The position numbers and the translations under genes were made by a program. A DNA stretch of 64,000 nt from Planctomycetota bacterium (GTDB lineage: Bacteria; Planctomycetota; Phycisphaerae; Phycisphaerales; SM1A02). Each line of letters opens with the position of its first letter. Positions within the stretch are counted from its first letter, which is position 1. The notes under the pieces are model-generated. The model made no database searches and was not told the DNA's origin. It worked only from the letters and a program-made list of their open reading frames with translations. Below are positions 11,727 to 64,000 of the stretch, in pieces. The stretch spans positions 1 through 64,000 of the forward strand of contig JAAERN010000014.1 in the NCBI GenBank assembly GCA_024230295.1. Direction: 5' to 3'.

Positions 11727-12194
11727 TCAACCTTGCGCAGGCTCAGACTTCTCTTTGAGCACGAGCCGTGTCCCGTCGATGCAAAGGTTCGAGTCAACCG
11801 CCTTGGTCATATCCCACAACGTAAGCGCGGCCACCGAAACAGCAGTCAATGCTTCCATTTCAACGCCCGTCCTTGCTGTCACGACTGATGTCGCCTCAAC
11901 CAGCACAACGCCTGGCTCAACGCGTTCGAAGCGAACCTCCACGTGCTCAAGCGGCAACGTGTGACAAAGTGGAATCAACGCGTCAACTCGCTTGGCCGCC
12001 TGGATACCGGCGATGCGAGCGACGGCAAGTGCCTCTCCCTTCGGAAGATTGCCGGACATGACGCGGTCCAGCGTGTCCGCTGCGGCGCAGAACCTCGTCT
12101 CGGCAACCGCCCGGCGGTGCACGACAGGCTTTGCCGACACATCAACCATGCTCGCCCGTCCTTGCTCATCGATATGCGTTAGTCGTTCAGACAT
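11727..12194 (-). CDS. moaC: Cyclic pyranopterin monophosphate synthase
   Basis: Second enzyme of molybdenum cofactor synthesis, acting on the product of MoaA to form cPMP. MoaC signatures are clear: LIPLCHTLPLEHV (substrate-binding His pair) and MEALTAVSVAALTLWDMTKA with the catalytic Lys and Asp. At 155 residues it is full length. An AGGAG 7 nt before the ATG lies inside the end of the upstream amidohydrolase gene, and the coding regions overlap by 8 bp, so they are coupled. No other moa gene is in the window. Confidence 0.96.
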   Translation of the reverse strand: MSERLTHIDEQGRASMVDVSAKPVVHRRAVAETRFCAAADTLDRVMSGNLPKGEALAVARIAGIQAAKRVDALIPLCHTLPLEHVEVRFERVEPGVVLVEATSVVTARTGVEMEALTAVSVAALTLWDMTKAVDSNLCIDGTRLVLKEKSEPAQG

Positions 12195-35612: not shown

Positions 35613-35698
35613 GCGCGAGTGGCGAAATTGGCAGACGCGCCAGCTTGAGGTGCTGGTGGGAGTAAAATCCCGTGGAGGTTCGAGTCCTCTCTCGCGCA
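35613..35698 (+). tRNA. tRNA-Leu (anticodon GAG)
   Basis: An 86-nt cloverleaf. The acceptor stem GCGCGAG pairs with CTCGCGC and is followed by discriminator A. The anticodon stem CCAGC/GCTGG encloses loop TTGAGGT, with anticodon GAG at 35647-35649 reading CUC/CUU. A long class II variable arm (GGGAGTAAAATCCC) and T-arm GGAGGTTCGAGTCCTC are present. CCA is not encoded. It lies between the queE operon and smpB. Confidence 0.96.
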
Positions 35699-56014: not shown

Positions 56015-57046
56015 CTATAGGCCGACCCATCTTCCCTGCTCCGGAACGTCAAACCCTCGTTCACCGATTTCAGCCACGAGTTTGAGATCGGAGAGTGCGG
56101 GATTCGTGTGGTTGAGATGAATAAACTGAATCCGCCCTGGGTGCGCCTTTGCCAGATCGCCCAGCGTGGTCAGGGTATCCCGCATGAAGGGGTGGGGAAT
56201 TTCGTCGGCGCATCGTCCCACCTCCTGCTCGTCGTAAAACGTTCCATCGACATAGGCCACATCAACACCATCGAGCAACCGTTCGATCATGCCCTCGTTC
56301 CTCGACCACTGATCGATGTCGGGAACCCACAGCAGTGTCTTTGCCGGACCGTGGAGTCGAAACGCCACAGTATCGCTGTACTCATCCCGGTGTGGCACTT
56401 GGATGGCCTCGACTCGGAGGCCCTCGACCGGCTCAAATACCGCGGCCCCATCGGTTCCCATCACAATCTCTTGCAGATCAACATGCCCGCCTGTCACCAA
56501 CCCGGACCAGGGCGCATGAGCACGAATAAAGTCCGCCATCTTCGGCGTACAGAAGATCGGCAACTCATCGGTGGCGGCGACTTCCTTTCCGAACTGCATC
56601 AACCCGGCGTAGTGGCCGATATGCGCGTGCGTCAGAAGCACACCGTCGACAGGGACACGATCTCGCGGATCGACCTCGGCGAGCGTGTGGAGCATCGCCA
56701 CCTGCGACTCAACCGCTGGAGTCGCCTCGATAAGCAGGAGCGCGCCGGTCAGTCTGTCCCGCACACCAAGGCTGCACGGATACTCCACCCGCCCCTCGCG
56801 TCGAGCCACTCTGCAACACTCCCGCACGCAGCCCAGATGCGGCACCCCGCCATCCTGAGCCCGGCCGAGAAGCCACGTATCAAAGCGAGCGCTGCCGTCC
56901 ATCGCCAGAGGGTACTCGCGTTGACAAGCCAACCCGGCAGTCACGACCACCGCCAAACTCGCATAGCACAAGAGTTTTTTGCCGCACAGCCTGTTGGGGC
57001 ACAAACACTTACGCCTCCACTGACTTGATGGCGTCCGAAACCTCAT
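56015..57046 (-). CDS. PqqB-like metallo-beta-lactamase-fold lipoprotein
   Basis: About 343 residues with a basic start and a hydrophobic segment ending VTAGLAC, a probable lipoprotein signal. The MBL metal motif reads VLLTHAHIGHYAGLMQFGKE, in the HxHxGH style of PqqB. DIDQW (about 250) and later HLNHTNPA may supply further ligands. An early Cys-rich stretch (LGCVRECCRVAR) also occurs in PqqB-like proteins. It is secreted, so a role in cytosolic PQQ synthesis is unlikely. The start at ATG 57046 is tentative. Confidence 0.8.
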   Translation of the reverse strand: MRFRTPSSQWRRKCLCPNRLCGKKLLCYASLAVVVTAGLACQREYPLAMDGSARFDTWLLGRAQDGGVPHLGCVRECCRVARREGRVEYPCSLGVRDRLTGALLLIEATPAVESQVAMLHTLAEVDPRDRVPVDGVLLTHAHIGHYAGLMQFGKEVAATDELPIFCTPKMADFIRAHAPWSGLVTGGHVDLQEIVMGTDGAAVFEPVEGLRVEAIQVPHRDEYSDTVAFRLHGPAKTLLWVPDIDQWSRNEGMIERLLDGVDVAYVDGTFYDEQEVGRCADEIPHPFMRDTLTTLGDLAKAHPGRIQFIHLNHTNPALSDLKLVAEIGERGFDVPEQGRWVGL

Positions 57047-57055
57047 GTTTCTGAC

Positions 57056-57306
57056 TTGCCTTATGCATGCCTTGGGACATTGTTTCCTTGTGCGGGGCAT
57101 CAGGAGAGCCACGGCCCGAACGCACCACCAACACCCACACCCCCAGCGTTCATCACAGGCTCACGGAGGCCAACCTCTGCCGAGACCAGCTCACCGCTGA
57201 ACTTGCTTAACATCGGCAAGACTCGCGGTCTCCATGGTGCATCGGGATGAACGCAGGAAGAGAGGGCTCCCCATCGGCCATCGGTTGATGGGGAGCCTGT
57301 TCTTTT
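57056..57306 (+). ncRNA. Candidate structured ncRNA, copy A
   Basis: About 250 nt with no plausible coding content, homologous over its length to 61380-61646. The best-conserved part is 57171-57220, where CCGAGACC and CTCACCGCTGAA are nearly identical. An outer helix GCGTTCATC (57146-57154) with GATGAACGC (57246-57254) encloses TGCCGA (57178-57183) with TCGGCA (57213-57218). It ends in an intrinsic terminator. Both flanking genes are on the minus strand, so a plus-strand terminator here has no gene to serve other than this RNA. Copies differ by 1-nt indels, which argues against translation. No tRNA, tmRNA, SRP, RNase P or 6S hallmark was recognised. Confidence 0.55.
57265..57306 (+). terminator. 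Intrinsic terminator of ncRNA copy A
   Basis: A 15-bp stem GGCTCCCCATCGGCC / GGTTGATGGGGAGCC (two G-U pairs) with loop ATC is followed by TGTTCTTTT. The orientation is plus-strand. Confidence 0.85.
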
Positions 57307-57472
57307 GCAGACTGTTGCGTGCTGGATATCGAGGTACGGTGTTGACGAACACACTCCCAGGGCTTCGATCAACTACAGCAGGTCATCGATTTCGGCAGTG
57401 CTACAGGCTTCGCCACTACAAAACCAGCGATGGAACACACCATTTCAATCTGAAGACCATTCTTGCCCAACG

Positions 57473-59023
57473 CTAGATGCAGGGCCCCCACGCGTTGAGC
57501 ATCATGAGCAGATCGTCAATCCCGACATCGCCGCTCTGATCCAGATCCGCGCTTCCCGATTGCCCCCATTGGCCGATGAGCGTCAGCAGGTCGTCCACTC
57601 CCACATCACCGCTTGTATCGATATCGCCTGCACACTGTGGATTCGTATTCATGTACAGACTCGGGCTCCGCACGGCCCGGTATCCCGCACGGAGTCCGAC
57701 GCATACCTCCTGATTCAGGATGGACAGGTTCCACGCAGAATCGCCCTCTGCCGTCACCTCATGTATACCGAAGAGTTGCGTCGCGGTCACAAGCGTGTTT
57801 CCATTCGCCAGTCGATTGGCATCTCCGGTTGAGCTGCAATATTGCGGGGTCTCCCATGACCAGACGATCTCGGCCTGGGCAGGAGGATCGCCGGTCAACG
57901 CAATCTCGACGGCGCGGGACCAGCCATCACTGCCCACATCCTTGCCACCGCGGCGATTGCCATTGTCAAAGAGCAACAGCGTGCCATCTTCCGTCAGCAT
58001 CGGTGAATGCTGATACGAGAACAGATCATCACCGACTGGTACATCACCCGAAGGCATTGCCATACCAATATTGGCAGTGATGTCGCCTGTGTCATAGTCG
58101 ATACTCGTCACTCGACTCAGGTGACGGCTGGAAATCCAGACGCGTCCATCATGTTCTTCGTAGTGTGCATCGTTGACATGCGTCCAGTCGTTCCAATGAT
58201 TGGTCTGGTGGACGTCGTAATCACCCGTGTCGTAGTGATCGAAGGTCGACCAGTCAAATACGATCGCATTGGTCTCGGGATCCATCTCGACAATTCGGTC
58301 ACCTTGCCAGTTTCGGACAACACCATCCTGCTCGATGTCGCGGTACTCGCGCACCACCATCAGCACGCCGCCCCACGGCGTCATGGACGCACAATGGTGG
58401 ACCCGAAGATCGGCGTCGTCCGGCGAACTCCAAACGACCTCGCCACTCAAGGAGAGTATCCTCGCCTGCCCACCACCGACGCATAACAACCGGCCATCCG
58501 GCACGACCCGCACGTCCGAAAGTCGATCCGGCGCATCGATAAGCAGTTGAAGACCACCGTCAGTGTCATATCCAACGATCTGATCACAGTGATTGAAGAT
58601 GGTCAATCCCGGAGCAGCCATGCCAATCCCCTGCTTCACCTCGACCTCAAGGGGGAATCCGGGCGGTATGCCCCGAATCGAGAAGGATAAGGGCGGAAGC
58701 CACGCCTCTGGTTGCCCATCCACGATCGCGCGGGTCCGCCACAGGCAGTTGTCCCCGAACTCAAGCCAGTCTTTGACGATATGGCTGGCCGTCGCCGTCG
58801 TAGCGTCACCGAGCAAATTGGCAAACGGGTTGGACGATCCATCATCGATCGCGACCTGCAACTCATACTGATCAGCGGCATGAACCGCTTCCCACACCAA
58901 GCGAACGTGGGTCGTCTGAATCTCAGCACCATCCGGCGGCTCAACAGCAAACATCGCGTTAGGCACGATTGCGAGGCAAAACATGGCAACAGCACCTGCG
59001 ACACCATATCGATTATCAAACAT
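57473..59023 (-). CDS. Secreted arylsulfotransferase-like protein with dockerin-like tail
   Basis: 516 residues with a signal peptide (GAVAMFCLAIVPNAMFA). An Ig/fibronectin-like segment lies at about 30-125 and an ASST-like six-bladed domain at about 135-450, recognised by WTHVNDAHY, YQHSPMLTEDG, LLLFDNGNRRGG and DANRLANGNTLVT. The last 50 residues hold two dockerin-type calcium repeats (DIDTSGDVGVDDLLTLIGQW and DLDQSGDVGIDDLLMMLNAW). Arylsulfotransferases move sulfate between phenols; whether this one does is unproven. The start is ATG 59023; longer in-frame starts precede the signal peptide. Confidence 0.83.
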   Translation of the reverse strand: MFDNRYGVAGAVAMFCLAIVPNAMFAVEPPDGAEIQTTHVRLVWEAVHAADQYELQVAIDDGSSNPFANLLGDATTATASHIVKDWLEFGDNCLWRTRAIVDGQPEAWLPPLSFSIRGIPPGFPLEVEVKQGIGMAAPGLTIFNHCDQIVGYDTDGGLQLLIDAPDRLSDVRVVPDGRLLCVGGGQARILSLSGEVVWSSPDDADLRVHHCASMTPWGGVLMVVREYRDIEQDGVVRNWQGDRIVEMDPETNAIVFDWSTFDHYDTGDYDVHQTNHWNDWTHVNDAHYEEHDGRVWISSRHLSRVTSIDYDTGDITANIGMAMPSGDVPVGDDLFSYQHSPMLTEDGTLLLFDNGNRRGGKDVGSDGWSRAVEIALTGDPPAQAEIVWSWETPQYCSSTGDANRLANGNTLVTATQLFGIHEVTAEGDSAWNLSILNQEVCVGLRAGYRAVRSPSLYMNTNPQCAGDIDTSGDVGVDDLLTLIGQWGQSGSADLDQSGDVGIDDLLMMLNAWGPCI

Positions 59024-59490
59024 TGCTTTGACTCGCTCCGACTCCGCCGCCGTGATTCCACGGCATCTCATCCATACCCACGAAACAACTTGCTTCGTGT
59101 TGCTTCGTGCCGTTGCTCCCCGTGAGCGCATCGGACCTCTACTGCCTGTTCGATCAAATCGCTGTGGGGATGCGATGTTTTAAATTCTGTCGCACTTTAT
59201 TTTGAATCCCACCCTCGCATTACCCGATCGGTCGGCCGAGCAACCGCATGTCACACAGTGCGTCATCCTTCATGGAAGTCTTCTGCGACACCGGTGATGG
59301 ACACGAAACTCTGGTGGCGTAATGCTTCGTCTGCCAAGTCACCACGAGCGTCCCCTCGCCCACAAGAGGCTTGCAAGCGATTCTTCATGAGCCAATAGCA
59401 CGAAATTCACCAATCAGAAGATCTACTCTTGTTGGCTGCTTGCACAAAGCGATAAGGTGGTTTTCAGAGAGATCGGGTTCGGAGACAACC
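59024..59490. other. 467-bp divergent intergenic region
   Basis: Separates the two dockerin-tailed protein genes, which diverge from it. It holds a perfect tandem duplication of TTGCTTCGTG (59090-59109) and an AT-rich stretch near 59174-59207 that is the best candidate promoter zone. No coding sequence or convincing promoter pair could be assigned. Confidence 0.45.
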
Positions 59491-60846
59491 ATGGCAAATC
59501 ACCGAGTTTGGACAGCGTGCAGCCTCCTGACAATGACCACGGCAATCGCCGGAAGCGAGACATTCCCCGATCGCTACATCGTCACCGTGCTTGAACATCC
59601 CGAAGGCAACGGTACAAAGACACTTGTTCCGTTTGATCTCGACAATGACAATCGAATCACGGGATTTGTATTCCATGGGTATGGGCTTGATATGACCCGC
59701 CAACCATTCCTGTACTCGGATGGCAATGTACAAATCGTTCCGGCTGAGTGGGATTACACAGAGGGCCACCAACTCGCAGCCGACGGAACTGCCTTCGGAA
59801 TTGACGACACGACCGACAGCATCATCCACATTGATCCATCTGGCGCAACCGCCGTTGCAAACGCAACGTTCGGGCCCTTCACCGGGCTCACGCATGTCAC
59901 TACCTCCGGCTTTGTTCTGGGTCTGGACTACGACGAAGGCTTCGTCTGGCAAGAAGACATTGGCTATGTTCGACTAAGCACGCTGGAGGGAAGCACTGCC
60001 CCGACGTATGCCGCGGACGTCAACGAGTCCGGCATCGTCGTCGGCACCAACAATTTCAACAACGGGTCCGCATCACGCGCATTTTTCTGGGATGGATCGG
60101 CGTTGTCCGACCCGGCCCCCGGCCTCTCCGGGGCGACCCGATGCGTCGCCGTCGATCAGCAGGATCGCCTCGTTCTGGCGCACGCTCCAAATGGATTCTG
60201 GCCCGGTGGTGGCTTGCACACGATCTATCTCGCCACGCTGGATGACGGAACACTCGCGCTCGGCAATCCGGTAGCAAGCATCAGCGCCGCCTACAACTTC
60301 GATGTCATCGCCAATGACCACGGCGAGATCGCGATGTCGTGGCACACCAACAATGAAGATCCACACCTGCTCTTGGCCGGGCCAGACGGAATCGCAGCCA
60401 CATCTCTCACGCTCCCTCCTGGCATGATCGCCATCGAACTGACTGGTATCACCGATGCGGGCATGGTCTACGGCCAATTTCTGGACGCCCAGTACACCAG
60501 CCACGGCTTTGTCGCGTCGGCCGAGAACGGCGTCCATCTGATCGGGCACCGACTCATCGGCGCACCCCCCCTCTCGCCATACGGCACGCCCCGAGATGCC
60601 AACGCTTCGGGCACCATGATCATCAGTTGGGCTCACAACTACAACTACGGGCACTGGGCACTGATCGAACCGGCGCTCGAGGGCGACGCTGACGGAACAT
60701 CGACGATCGATATCAACGATGTATTGAGCGTGATTGCCGCGTGGGGGTCTCAGCCTGCGGGATCCATCTGCGGCCCGGACCTCAACATGAACGGCGTTGT
60801 CGACGTCAACGACCTTCTCGAAGTACTCGAGCATTTCGATCTCTGA
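59491..60846 (+). CDS. Secreted protein with HAF-like repeats and dockerin-like tail
   Basis: 451 residues with signal peptide MANHRVWTACSLLTMTTAIA. The body has repeated short motifs of the kind seen in HAF-repeat autotransport proteins (YAADVNESGIVVGTNNF, RAFFWDGSAL, ELTGITDAGMVYGQFLDA, SHGFVASAENG). The C-terminus has two calcium-loop repeats (GDADGTSTIDINDVLSVIAAW and DLNMNGVVDVNDLLEVLEHF), as in the neighbouring arylsulfotransferase-like protein. GGAG lies 6 nt before ATG 59491. The function is unknown; the location is extracellular or outer surface. Confidence 0.78.
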   Translation: MANHRVWTACSLLTMTTAIAGSETFPDRYIVTVLEHPEGNGTKTLVPFDLDNDNRITGFVFHGYGLDMTRQPFLYSDGNVQIVPAEWDYTEGHQLAADGTAFGIDDTTDSIIHIDPSGATAVANATFGPFTGLTHVTTSGFVLGLDYDEGFVWQEDIGYVRLSTLEGSTAPTYAADVNESGIVVGTNNFNNGSASRAFFWDGSALSDPAPGLSGATRCVAVDQQDRLVLAHAPNGFWPGGGLHTIYLATLDDGTLALGNPVASISAAYNFDVIANDHGEIAMSWHTNNEDPHLLLAGPDGIAATSLTLPPGMIAIELTGITDAGMVYGQFLDAQYTSHGFVASAENGVHLIGHRLIGAPPLSPYGTPRDANASGTMIISWAHNYNYGHWALIEPALEGDADGTSTIDINDVLSVIAAWGSQPAGSICGPDLNMNGVVDVNDLLEVLEHFDL

Positions 60847-60911
60847 GTTCACGCTCAGATACGACGATCCGACTGCATCAACTTCTCGATACGACCGAGG
60901 GTCTCGTCAAT

Positions 60912-61237
60912 ATGAACAAGCGTGTCTCCCTGCGGCTCAGCGGCACGCTCACTCATGTGGTGATGGGACACAAGACTGTCACGCTAGGGCAGAACATCAT
61001 TACATCGTCGACTTTGACGACTGGGAATCCGAGTCCGCCGTCCGCGATGTTCACTTCCTTGGGCCTGACGGAACGCTTGTAGGTCCGACCTATGAACCAC
61101 ACTTTGGTGACCACGCCATTCTGTGCCCAAACGGCGTGCTCGATGTGCAGTACATGTACATCAATCTCGCTGGTATGGACGGCGAAGGTGGCGGACCGTT
61201 CAATGGGATCGAATTGGCGAAGTTGCTGAATCCTTAG
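60912..61237 (+). pseudogene. Frame-broken gene of unknown function
   Basis: ATG 60912 (GAGG upstream) opens a frame reading MNKRVSLRLSGTLTHVVMGH. Coding-like sequence then continues in the -1 frame from about 60990 (YIVDFDDWESESAVRDVHFL, FGDHAILCPNGVLDVQYMYI) to a stop at 61237. No start codon exists in the second frame after the upstream gene ends. A single-base indel, assembly error or -1 frameshift would restore a protein of about 109 residues. No family was recognised. Confidence 0.5.
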
Positions 61238-61379
61238 CAGGCCAAACCCGAGCCTTCCATACCGCACATCGCACCATAGACGCACGCTCGTTGCAGCTTT
61301 TTGCGTCACGCATCCCACTGAATGTCAAGAACTTACGGGTCGCTGGCAAGGCCCGGCCCCGCAATCCTCAACATTCCGC

Positions 61380-61646
61380 CTTGCCTAAAGGCGATTGTGA
61401 GGCATGGTTCCTCATGTGCGAGGGGTTTCAAAAAGGGCACTGCCCAAACTCAGCTCGGACCTTCAAACACTACCCACACCCCTTCGTTCTTAGCGGGCCC
61501 TTGGAAGCCAAACTCCGCCGAGACCATTCTCACCGCTGAATTGCCTTAGAAGTCGGCGAGATGCACGGCTTTCACACCCGACCCACAAAGAGCGTAGGAA
61601 GAGAAGGCTCCCCATTGGCTTCGGCTAATGGGGAGCCTGTTTTTTG
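61380..61646 (+). ncRNA. Candidate structured ncRNA, copy B
   Basis: Homologous to 57056-57306. Both start with CTTGCC, share TGTGCG and CCCACACCCC-type segments, and share the core GCCGAGACC..CTCACCGCTGAA. The equivalent outer helix is CGTTCTT (61485-61491) with AAGAGCG (61588-61594). The inner helix is CGCCGA (61516-61521) with TCGGCG (61553-61558). Relative to copy A the inner helix changes U-A to C-G and the outer helix changes A-U to U-A, both compensatory. A small TGAGG/CCTCA hairpin occurs near 61398-61415. It ends in a UUCG-loop terminator. The 61238-61379 stretch before it shows nothing recognisable. Confidence 0.55.
61606..61646 (+). terminator. Intrinsic terminator of ncRNA copy B (UUCG tetraloop)
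   Basis: GGCTCCCCATTGGC and GCTAATGGGGAGCC form a 14-bp stem (one G-U) closed by a TTCG tetraloop and followed by TGTTTTTTG. The first 10 bases of the stem are identical to the copy A terminator. Confidence 0.9.
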
Positions 61647-61729
61647 AACCGCCACACACTGGAAGCACATCGCAGTTCCCCCTTCGACCCGTCGGGTCGA
61701 CCAAGGCAGCGGCTCTATCATGGCTGCCA

Positions 61730-64000
61730 ATGTCACTCCCCGTACTCATACTGGTCACCGCCATCGCATCTACAAGCGGATCGCCGGTCACGCTCATGAC
61801 ATTTAACATCCGCTATGACAATCCTGCAGACGGCGCCAACATCTGGAATGCTCGCCGGACGCTCGTCGCGGACACCATCCGCCAAACCGACCCGGCCGCC
61901 ATTGCCATTCAAGAAGCGCTCCCCCACCAACTCACGTGGCTCCTTGAGACGTTGCCTCAGTACACGCAAGTCGGCACGCCCCGCACCTCGAACGGCGAGT
62001 TCAGCGGATTGCTTATTGACCCCACCAGACTGGAGATCCTCGCCTCGGGACAGATCTGGCTCTCCGAGCAACCGGACGCGCCAAGCAGCACCGGATGGGA
62101 TGCAGCGCTACCACGAACCGCAACGTGGACCCGCGTGCGCCGCTCCGGAACTTCCAGCCCCGTCATACTCCTCGTCGGAACACACTTCGATCATCAAGGC
62201 CGCGAAGCCAGAGCACAGAGCGCCGCCCTCATTGTGTCGAGCCTGCCGGAGTGGTGCGACGGCAAGCCACTGCCCATCGCCATCATGGGAGACTTCAACG
62301 CCTCACCCGGAAGTCCTCCCATAACTACGTTCGAAGATGCTGGCTTTGCCCCAAGCATTTCCAAAGGCGAAGGTACGTTCCACCGATTCGACGGAGAGTC
62401 AACCGGCCCTCACATCGACGACATCTTGCTCAATGATCAGTGGACAGGACAGCGAGCCGAGGTCCTGCGCCCCCGAGCAGGCAAGCGCACCGCGTCTGAT
62501 CACGACCCAGTATTCCTCAGTGCGGTCCCCAAGGCACCGACCGGCACCATCGGCTTACCGCGCCAACTCACACAGACATGGCACCCTCCCGCCTCAACCA
62601 TTGTCAACCTTGCCGCACTCGGCCTACCGCCAAACATCCAGCAGCAAGCCCAACGTGTAGCAAATGTGCTCAAAGATCGCGGCCACACCGAAACCGATCA
62701 CCACCAACTCTCCCGTGTGCTCGCGCCATTTACGCACCCATTTGCGCTTCCCGAACTCGGTCTCGATGTCACCGACTCACTACGGGAACTGCCGCAGCAT
62801 CCCGGCGCCATCCGCGACATCGCTGCAGACATGCTCGACACAACGCCTTCGCCAGGCAACCGCCCTCGCGGCGATCGCGAGTTGGCAGATCGGCTGCTAG
62901 CCTTTCTGGAAGTCCCAGCAGGCACCCTCTATATCGAGGACGACTTACCCGCGATGCTCGGCGTCATCCGCGCATCGGTGGACATCGACTTCGGCGCGAT
63001 CACCGCCTCTCTTGTCGTTCCCCAAGCAACGTCACAGCCCTTCTTCGGCCGCGCGAAGCCTCCAGGCGTCACTGGATCGATCCTTGCCGGCGAACATGGT
63101 CGCAACGGTTGGCGCGTCGTGGGCGGCGATGGCCCCAACACCTATGACATGAGCCTACTCGCCGAAGTCTTCGATATGGGCGGCGATGATCGCTACACCG
63201 CGAGCGACCTCGTACTCGGCGACCGACTCGTTGTGGATCTCGGCGGGAACGACGTCTACACAGGCACGCCTTCGCAAGGTCCGGCTGCAGGCCTCTTCGG
63301 CACGTGGATCATCGACGACCGCAGCGGCGACGATCGCTACGGGCAGAAAGGCGGCCGTTTCTCGACCGGCGCGGGCGCATTCGGCGCGGGCATGATCATC
63401 GACCGCGGCGGGGATGATGTCTACATGGGAACGCACTGGTCGATCGGCGCCGCGGTGTATGGGGCGGGCATCGTCATGGATCTTGGCGGAGGCAACGATC
63501 AGTACCTCGGCGACTTTCTCACAGACGCCGTCGGCGGACCGCGTGGGTTTGGACTCGTGCTGGATGCAGGCGGCGACGATCGCCACATCGCCGACGGGCC
63601 GACGTCATCTGTCTATGGCACCCCAAATGTGCATGCTTCCTTAAGCCAGGGCATGGGCTTTGGCTACCGCAAGTATGCGGCGGGGGGAATCGGCGTGTTG
63701 TGTGATCTTGCGGGCGACGACCACTATCAGGCCGGCGAATTCAGCCAAGGGGGCGGCTACTACCACAGCCTCGGCGTGCTGCGCGACGTGAGCGGCAATG
63801 ACATCTACAACGGCAATCGCTACGCGCAGGGCTTCGGCGTCCACCAGGCCTTCGGTGTCCTGGTCGACGACGCGGGCAACGATGCCTACGACGCCATGAC
63901 GGCGGCAGATCAGGGATCCGCCTGGGATATCGCAGCGGGCGCGCTGCTTGATCGCGGCGGCAACGACACCTACAACGCAGACGGCATGGCGCAGGCATCA
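61730..64000 (+). CDS. Endonuclease/exonuclease/phosphatase protein with GGDD repeats (partial)
   Basis: An open frame from ATG 61730 to the window edge (757 codons, 3' end missing). A short hydrophobic signal (LPVLILVTAIASTSG) leads to an EEP domain at about 20-265 with MTFNIRYDNPADG, AIQEALPHQ, GTHFDHQGREARAQSA, MGDFNASPGSPP, PHIDDILL and the terminal SDHDPVF, so all core metal/catalytic motifs are present. A helical middle region of unknown type spans about 270-475. From about residue 478 onward come GGDDxY-type repeats. The EEP subclass resembles secreted nucleases and phosphodiesterases. Confidence 0.85.
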   Translation, partial: MSLPVLILVTAIASTSGSPVTLMTFNIRYDNPADGANIWNARRTLVADTIRQTDPAAIAIQEALPHQLTWLLETLPQYTQVGTPRTSNGEFSGLLIDPTRLEILASGQIWLSEQPDAPSSTGWDAALPRTATWTRVRRSGTSSPVILLVGTHFDHQGREARAQSAALIVSSLPEWCDGKPLPIAIMGDFNASPGSPPITTFEDAGFAPSISKGEGTFHRFDGESTGPHIDDILLNDQWTGQRAEVLRPRAGKRTASDHDPVFLSAVPKAPTGTIGLPRQLTQTWHPPASTIVNLAALGLPPNIQQQAQRVANVLKDRGHTETDHHQLSRVLAPFTHPFALPELGLDVTDSLRELPQHPGAIRDIAADMLDTTPSPGNRPRGDRELADRLLAFLEVPAGTLYIEDDLPAMLGVIRASVDIDFGAITASLVVPQATSQPFFGRAKPPGVTGSILAGEHGRNGWRVVGGDGPNTYDMSLLAEVFDMGGDDRYTASDLVLGDRLVVDLGGNDVYTGTPSQGPAAGLFGTWIIDDRSGDDRYGQKGGRFSTGAGAFGAGMIIDRGGDDVYMGTHWSIGAAVYGAGIVMDLGGGNDQYLGDFLTDAVGGPRGFGLVLDAGGDDRHIADGPTSSVYGTPNVHASLSQGMGFGYRKYAAGGIGVLCDLAGDDHYQAGEFSQGGGYYHSLGVLRDVSGNDIYNGNRYAQGFGVHQAFGVLVDDAGNDAYDAMTAADQGSAWDIAAGALLDRGGNDTYNADGMAQAS
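63165..64000 (+). repeat. GGDD/GGND repeats in the C-terminal part of the EEP protein
   Basis: At least ten copies of a [GSA]G[DN]D-x-[YH] motif (GGDDRY, GGNDVY, SGDDRY, GGDDVY, GGNDQY, GGDDRH, AGDDHY, SGNDIY, AGNDAY, GGNDTY) recur about every 20-35 residues. Each is preceded by a short hydrophobic strand such as GAGMIID or GFGLVLDA. The pattern suggests a calcium-binding beta-solenoid and continues beyond the window. Confidence 0.8.

Follow-up and report, generated by a model that had tools for sequence, protein, structure and literature searches.

The window, a stretch of 64,000 nucleotides from the genome of an uncultured ocean planctomycete, referred to here as G000, contains a noncoding segment (copy A, 57056-57308, plus strand) that lies between two genes on the minus strand, and the question is what kind of transcript this segment encodes, if any. 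The strand of both neighbours, as described in an earlier note on this DNA, is confirmed by the ORF list and by Pfam: a gene for a lactamase-fold protein (PF12706) diverges from copy A, and a gene for an arylsulfotransferase (PF05935) converges with it. The earlier note called the segment antisense to both genes. It is indeed on the strand opposite to both, but it does not overlap their likely coding regions. The lactamase-fold gene may start at ATG 57046, which is the preferred reading, or at GTG 57112, and copy A is intergenic if ATG 57046 is used, so that the term antisense is too strong. The reported homology of copy A to a second segment, copy B (61381-61647, plus strand), holds; the two are homologous predicted transcription units with an identity of 72% over 174 nt, or 68% across the predicted transcripts. 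Downstream of copy B is a plus-strand gene of the endonuclease/exonuclease/phosphatase family (PF03372). The features of both copies are summarized in Table 1. A third copy is not detected in the 64-kb window with model R2, even with the filters off, and a search of the whole G000 genome with R2 gives only A, B and two partial reverse-strand matches to their terminators. Reverse-strand terminator matches at the RNA loci themselves are not counted as relatives. A phage or plasmid origin is not indicated, in that copy A, the sole query used, has no match in a viral or plasmid collection. Two protein genes near the copies (57473-59131, minus strand, and 59371-60846, plus strand) end with repeats, which we take to be dockerin-like. 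The product of the latter gene has no Pfam match, and a counterpart of this gene is present near the RNA in two sister species (G004 and G007).

Table 1. Predicted features of copies A and B, in window coordinates
Feature	Coordinates	Strand	Basis
Copy A -35 hexamer TTGCCT	57056..57061	+	TTGNNY-N16-CATNNT common to 8/8 loci
Copy A -10 hexamer CATTGT	57078..57083	+	Motif across loci; window motif count
Copy A predicted 5' end (about 57090) and 5' hairpin	57090..57125	+	MFE fold
Copy A C/A-rich linker, unpaired in fold, 3' end CCCCCA, proposed pairing seed	57126..57145	+	Fold
Copy A P1 5' arm GCGTTCATC	57146..57154	+	Anchored arm-swap test; RNAalifold
Copy A P2 5' arm TGCCGA	57178..57183	+	RNAalifold helix, columns 38-42/80-84
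Copy A P2 3' arm TCGGCA	57213..57218	+	RNAalifold; pair-change count
Copy A P1 3' arm GATGAACGC	57246..57254	+	Arm-swap test; RNAalifold
Copy A invariant purine tract AGGAAGAGA	57255..57263	+	Same in 8/8 loci
Copy A intrinsic terminator, 16-pair stem 57264-57298 and U-rich tail	57264..57308	+	Terminator scan
Copy B -35 hexamer TTGCCT	61381..61386	+	Motif across loci; window motif count
Copy B -10 hexamer CATGGT	61403..61408	+	Motif across loci; window motif count
Copy B 5' region, predicted start about 61415, hairpin and C-rich linker	61415..61483	+	Folds
Copy B P1 5' arm TCGTTCTT	61484..61491	+	Arm-swap test; fold
Copy B P2 5' arm CGCCGA	61516..61521	+	RNAalifold; pair-change count
Copy B P2 3' arm TCGGCG	61553..61558	+	RNAalifold; pair-change count
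Copy B P1 3' arm AAGAGCGT	61588..61595	+	Arm-swap test; fold
Copy B purine tract AGGAAGAGA	61596..61604	+	Same in 8/8 loci
Copy B intrinsic terminator, 15-pair stem 61605-61638 and U-tail	61605..61646	+	Terminator scan

Eight loci of this RNA are detected in six of the nine species of the genus: A and B in G000, G003a and G003b in G003, and one each in G001, G004, G006 and G007, with one or two copies per carrier genome. Neither G005 nor G008 gives a match, and G002 gives nothing better than E 0.06, when the search is done with R2 and neighbourhood loci are also examined; single absences are weak evidence, because the genomes are drafts. In G008, a gene that is presumably dockerin-like is followed by tRNA-Gly, with a gap of about 220 nt and no RNA element between them. 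The identity of the lactamase-fold protein between G000 and the five other carriers is 60-65%, and the phosphatase-family protein of G000 is 68% identical to that of G001 and 58% to that of G006. The tree of the lactamase-fold protein, which was constructed without G002 as no match is found there, does not group RNA carriers and non-carriers (three changes, equalled by shuffles).

All eight loci have their own sigma70-like promoter motif, as judged from the sequence, in that TTGNNY and CATNNT, separated by 16 nt, are located upstream of every one of them. This motif was defined by eye, after reading, from the eight loci themselves. Its stricter form occurs twice in the window (both strands, 128,000 bases), at A and B only, and its looser form occurs four times; a similar form occurs twice in six neighbourhood loci. 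The motif is not among the five sites given by a sigma70 consensus scan, and the promoter of copy A has 7 of the 12 sigma70 consensus bases by our own count. The tRNA-Gly genes of all five sister genomes viewed (G001, G003, G004, G007 and G008) have TTGCAM-N16-TANANT upstream, and this uniform pattern is found at L102, L103, L104, L097 and L030. The putative RNA promoter shares the start of the -35 box and the 16-nt spacing with the tRNA-Gly promoters, suggesting that it is of a housekeeping-like type in the genus. Its -10 box differs from that of tRNA-Gly. The earlier note placed the beginning of the element at 57056. This position must be corrected, because this base belongs to the -35 hexamer, and the RNA of copy A probably starts near 57090.

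The strong plus-strand intrinsic terminator noted at copy A is found again. There are five terminator-like sites in 56900-61800 (mean of 3.3 for shuffles), and the stems of A and B contain 16 and 15 pairs respectively, while those of the other three contain 6-7. The length of the RNA family is about 205-305 nt, as judged from the positions of the predicted promoters and terminators. These loci have three features of an intrinsically terminated bacterial sRNA gene, namely a putative promoter, a predicted terminator on the same strand and no conserved ORF.

The genes downstream of the RNA differ from locus to locus. They are a minus-strand gene at A, a phosphatase-family gene at B and G001, a co-directional ORF, which we take to be NUDIX-like, at G003a and G006, and tRNA-Gly at G003b, G004 and G007. 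In the latter three species, about 130-225 nt separate the RNA from a co-directional tRNA-Gly(GCC) downstream (L007 1688-1759, L008 1001-1072 and L010 306-377). If the RNA were a cis-acting, riboswitch-like leader or attenuator of the downstream gene, it would be expected that B and its G001 relative precede the same phosphatase-family gene and that G003a and G006 precede the same co-directional ORF, as they do. This explanation is hardly probable, because the gene downstream of A is on the minus strand, three loci precede tRNA-Gly, and no co-directional downstream gene is common to all eight loci; a leader of one gene was rejected on this ground. It is still harder to regard the RNA as a short mRNA encoding a small protein. 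One frame through the purine tract reads RRKRGLP in six of the eight loci, those where the stretch was viewed, but the distance to the first upstream start codon in this frame varies from 18 to 273 nt, B has none, and the stops differ. In addition, the loci differ by single-base indels, as the earlier note had seen between the two copies. No reading frame is common to the loci, and a small ORF was rejected.

Beyond the genus, model R1 (3' module) gives a match at E ≤1 in 51 of 181 genomes of the family, the genus included. Matches below 1e-5 are confined to the genus, except for one in G178 (3.7e-6), and nearly all of those 17 of the weaker matches that were read by eye are plain hairpins without the tract. 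G178, which belongs to another genus, has GGAGGAAGAGAAGG before a strong terminator (L057 1501-1558) and is also matched by R2 (E 7.7e-6), with no clear promoter seen; it possibly carries a distant relative. G096 has GCAGGAAGAGA at a gene start, with no U-tail. Two other candidates were dropped as relatives: G045, which matches over 33 nt at E 4.9e-4, and G004:C124, which has two mismatches and no terminator. When 400 genomes of the order are searched with R2, the six carriers are matched at E 1.7e-27 or better, and ten other genomes at E 0.0018-0.064, which is taken as chance. An exact 18-nt string is found in 21 stretches among genome contigs, six of which are Phycisphaerales loci. One of the other 15 (L026, Propionigenium) has a hairpin following it, as seen by eye, and this is also taken as chance. 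Two viral contigs with the string have no matching hairpin in the stretch viewed. These results suggest that, on present evidence, the RNA family is confined to part of one genus.

The body of the RNA is closed by a stem, P1, and within this stem is a hairpin, P2, which is kept across the loci with some broken pairs. The predicted transcripts of A and B fold better than all of their 200 shuffles, with z of -4.76 and -3.97 respectively. The part from P1 to the purine tract, with the terminator excluded, gives z of -3.43 (A) and -3.14 (B), and the parts enclosed by P1 in G001 (z -1.18) and G007 (z -1.37) are weakly better than shuffles. When folded alone, the 5' hairpin of either copy is no better than shuffles. 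RNAalifold recovers P1, P2 and the terminator unaided from a MAFFT alignment, together with a 3-pair helix that was not used. Changes on both sides are found in 7 of 25 pairs, compared with a mean of 2.5 for shuffles, none of 500 of which reaches this number, and with 0 to 3 for slid controls. These two-sided changes are distributed over P1 (2 of 4 pairs), P2 (1 of 5) and the terminator (4 of 16). The change of the inner stem from TGCCGA/TCGGCA in A to CGCCGA/TCGGCG in B is present as described, and so is that of one outer-stem pair from A-U in A to U-A in B; the latter pair is C-G in G001, as read directly. P2 is broken in 4 of 40 cells, and its hairpin is weaker in some copies. Single-sequence folds partly disagree with P2, and the MFE structure of A pairs the P2 region otherwise.

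P1 extends beyond the aligned columns. Its arms are GCGTTCATC/GATGAACGC in A, GCGAACGG/CCGTTCGC in G004, ACGTTCC/GGAACGT in G001, and GCGTCCA/TGGACGC in G003a and G006; P1 is imperfect in G003b (one bulge), G007 (one mismatch) and B (weaker arm). An unanchored test of P1 was weak for single loci. The loci that stood out were A, which none of 500 shuffles reached, and G004, which 2 reached, the numbers for B, G001, G003a, G003b, G006 and G007 being 118, 100, 51, 66, 67 and 224 respectively. Anchored tests, in which the 3' arms are exchanged among the bodies of the loci, were designed later, once this result and the sequences had been seen. The swaps exclude G006, because it is a near copy of G003a (97%). 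When one bulge is allowed, the true assignment of the arms is the sole best of 5040 for the seven loci. Without a bulge, 2 of 5040 assignments reach the true score, and 5 of 5040 reach it if the arm is free anywhere. Thus, the sequence of the predicted P1 stem varies across loci while its pairing is kept, which is covariation. Little covariation comes from A and B alone; it is provided by the six further loci.

The most conserved part of the RNA is its 3' module, CGYAGGAAGAGARGGCTCCCC, which spans 21 columns and runs into the terminator. Its mean identity is 96% over seven rows, compared with 48% for the body. The lower stem of the terminator is unvarying in all eight loci, and the upper pairs vary with pairing kept. 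If the RNA were no more than a conserved terminator or a repeat in decay, with no function of its own, the peak of conservation at the terminator and the G008 tRNA-Gly locus without the element would be explained. This is improbable, because a promoter motif at all eight loci, the covariation of P1 and the presence of one or two copies per genome, not many, would not be expected from it.

The fixed 3' module may instead be recognized by a protein. That the RNA binds CsrA or another protein through this module, titrating or guiding it, is a possibility we hold only tentatively. It would account for the contrast in identity between module and body, and for the fixed sequence of the lower terminator stem, since any stem would terminate. 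It would also agree with the presence of a single invariant AGGA in the module and of CsrA in all nine genomes (two matches in eight genomes and one in G003). The 11-nt sequence exactly complementary to the purine tract, CCTCTCTTCCT, points the same way. In G000, G001, G003, G004 and G006 it occurs nowhere but at the RNA loci, with other sites in G007 (three) and G002 (one), so that the tract is unlikely to be a long mRNA seed shared among the carriers, five of six of which confine it to the RNA loci. The reversed control of CCTCTCTTCCT occurs 0-2 times per genome, and no depletion is thus shown. Against protein binding, GGA counts are near chance in all eight loci (4-7, compared with 3.4-6.5 expected), CsrA is also encoded by the three species in which the RNA was not found, and folds show the purine tract partly paired (unpaired probability of 0.26-0.49), its partner in A and B being the U-tail. 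The RNA resembles CsrB/RsmZ-type sponges in being a predicted autonomous RNA of CsrA-encoding genomes, but differs from them in that GGA is not enriched, and a CsrA sponge was rejected. It is equally doubtful, though conceivable, that the near-invariant 21-nt module is a docking site for an RNA chaperone in a fast-evolving family with no detected Hfq, the body being free under structural constraint. With a body that varies freely and a 3' module that does not, the idea of a protein partner can be put to the test. The spacer of the tRNA-Gly promoter in G008, a species lacking this RNA, contains CCTCTTCCTGCG (L097, around 12008-12036). This near reverse complement of the conserved tract is probably due to chance.

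No known RNA class is recognized, in agreement with the earlier note, in that no Rfam match reaches its threshold at A or B. With Rfam 15, the window gives one match above threshold, a tRNA at 35613, and the six sister loci show nothing but three tRNAs at E up to 0.5. Weak matches in 56950-61750 at E up to 5 are ctRNA_p42d, SCARNA21 and one on another stretch. ctRNA_p42d (RF00489) is the best Rfam match to A (28.1 bits, E 0.004), but this falls short of the gathering score (50), and the match spans no more than the terminator with its flank (57261-57308). SCARNA21, at 18.9 of 60 bits (E 0.79), overlaps copy B in its 5' part. 6S RNA (RF00013) is similar in that it is structured, measures about 200 nt and has a gene located outside coding genes; it was rejected, because A and B have no match to it in 56950-61750 even at E 5. 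A separate 6S-like RNA is located at other loci of the genus. This divergent RNA scores 15-27 bits in six sister species, compared with the RF00013 threshold of 46.4 (L043, L044, L045, L046, L047 and L048, around 1501-1674; L045 716-879). It is found in G001, G003, G004, G006 and G007, more weakly in G008, and not in G000. It shares long blocks but scores below the threshold, indicating that the Rfam cut-off misses it in the genus.

Two outcomes that the earlier note named as refuting its reading, a match to an Rfam family and a lack of homologues or covariation, were not observed. Thus, the autonomous, structured, noncoding transcript proposed in the earlier note is the best reading of copy A, judging from the promoter-like motif, the terminator, the P1 covariation, the lack of a shared frame, the lack of an Rfam family and the sister homologues, and the RNA represents a real, conserved and probably autonomous small RNA family. 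A and B are probably two copies in G000 of a regulator RNA without earlier description that recurs in sister species. Among the titles and abstracts listed from the openly licensed PMC literature, none concerns this RNA. The Rhodopirellula-1 motif is a candidate structured RNA of Proteobacteria and Planctomycetes (Weinberg et al. 2010, PMC2864571), and it was considered by its listing alone, where no Rfam number is printed. About 550 bacterial sRNA families are counted in a 2022 review, the table of which gives eight for the whole PVC group (PMC9029176). An RNA family with a promoter motif, a structure and a terminator that can be tracked across sister species would provide a handle on post-transcriptional control in bacteria in which Hfq is not detected.

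Hfq (PF17209) is not detected in any of the nine genomes of the genus, while the PF17209 control is positive in 5 of 14, and an Hfq-dependent sRNA was rejected for this reason. The best reading is a genus-restricted, Hfq-independent small regulatory RNA. We lean, by a little more than an even chance, to the view that A and B are paralogs within this sRNA family and act in trans without Hfq by C-rich or pyrimidine-rich pairing. The RNA would be transcribed on its own and act after transcription. The C-rich or pyrimidine-rich stretch immediately before P1 would pair with G-rich ribosome-binding regions of mRNAs, P1 and P2 would keep this seed open, and the 3' module would supply termination, stability and possibly a docking site for a protein. 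A run of at least four C residues is found within 12 nt 5' of P1 in A, B, G001, G003b and G004, five of the eight loci, compared with a chance rate of about 0.9 of 8 summed over shuffles, the loci being related. The sequence before P1 in G007, G003a and G006 is CCUC or CCUCC. The 25 nt before P1 of copy A are 64% C, with a mean unpaired probability of 0.74. This probability is 0.69-0.79 among A, B, G003b and G007, 0.54 in G001 and 0.57 in G004. The linkers of G003a and G006 are 32% and 28% C and mostly paired (0.35 and 0.33).

RNAIII and RsaE of Staphylococcus are Hfq-independent trans-acting sRNAs with C-rich motifs. We know of no sequence relation of the present family to these RNAs or to sX13 of Xanthomonas. 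Without Hfq, sX13 uses its C-rich loops to repress mRNAs that carry G-rich motifs close to the start (PMC3771888). It is by analogy with this precedent that pairing with G-rich ribosome-binding regions is proposed here. The RNA resembles these sRNAs in several features: a putative promoter, a predicted terminator, stable stems, exposed C-runs and no detected Hfq. It differs from sX13 in the position of the C-runs, which are located in the linker before P1 in the present family, but in apical loops in sX13.
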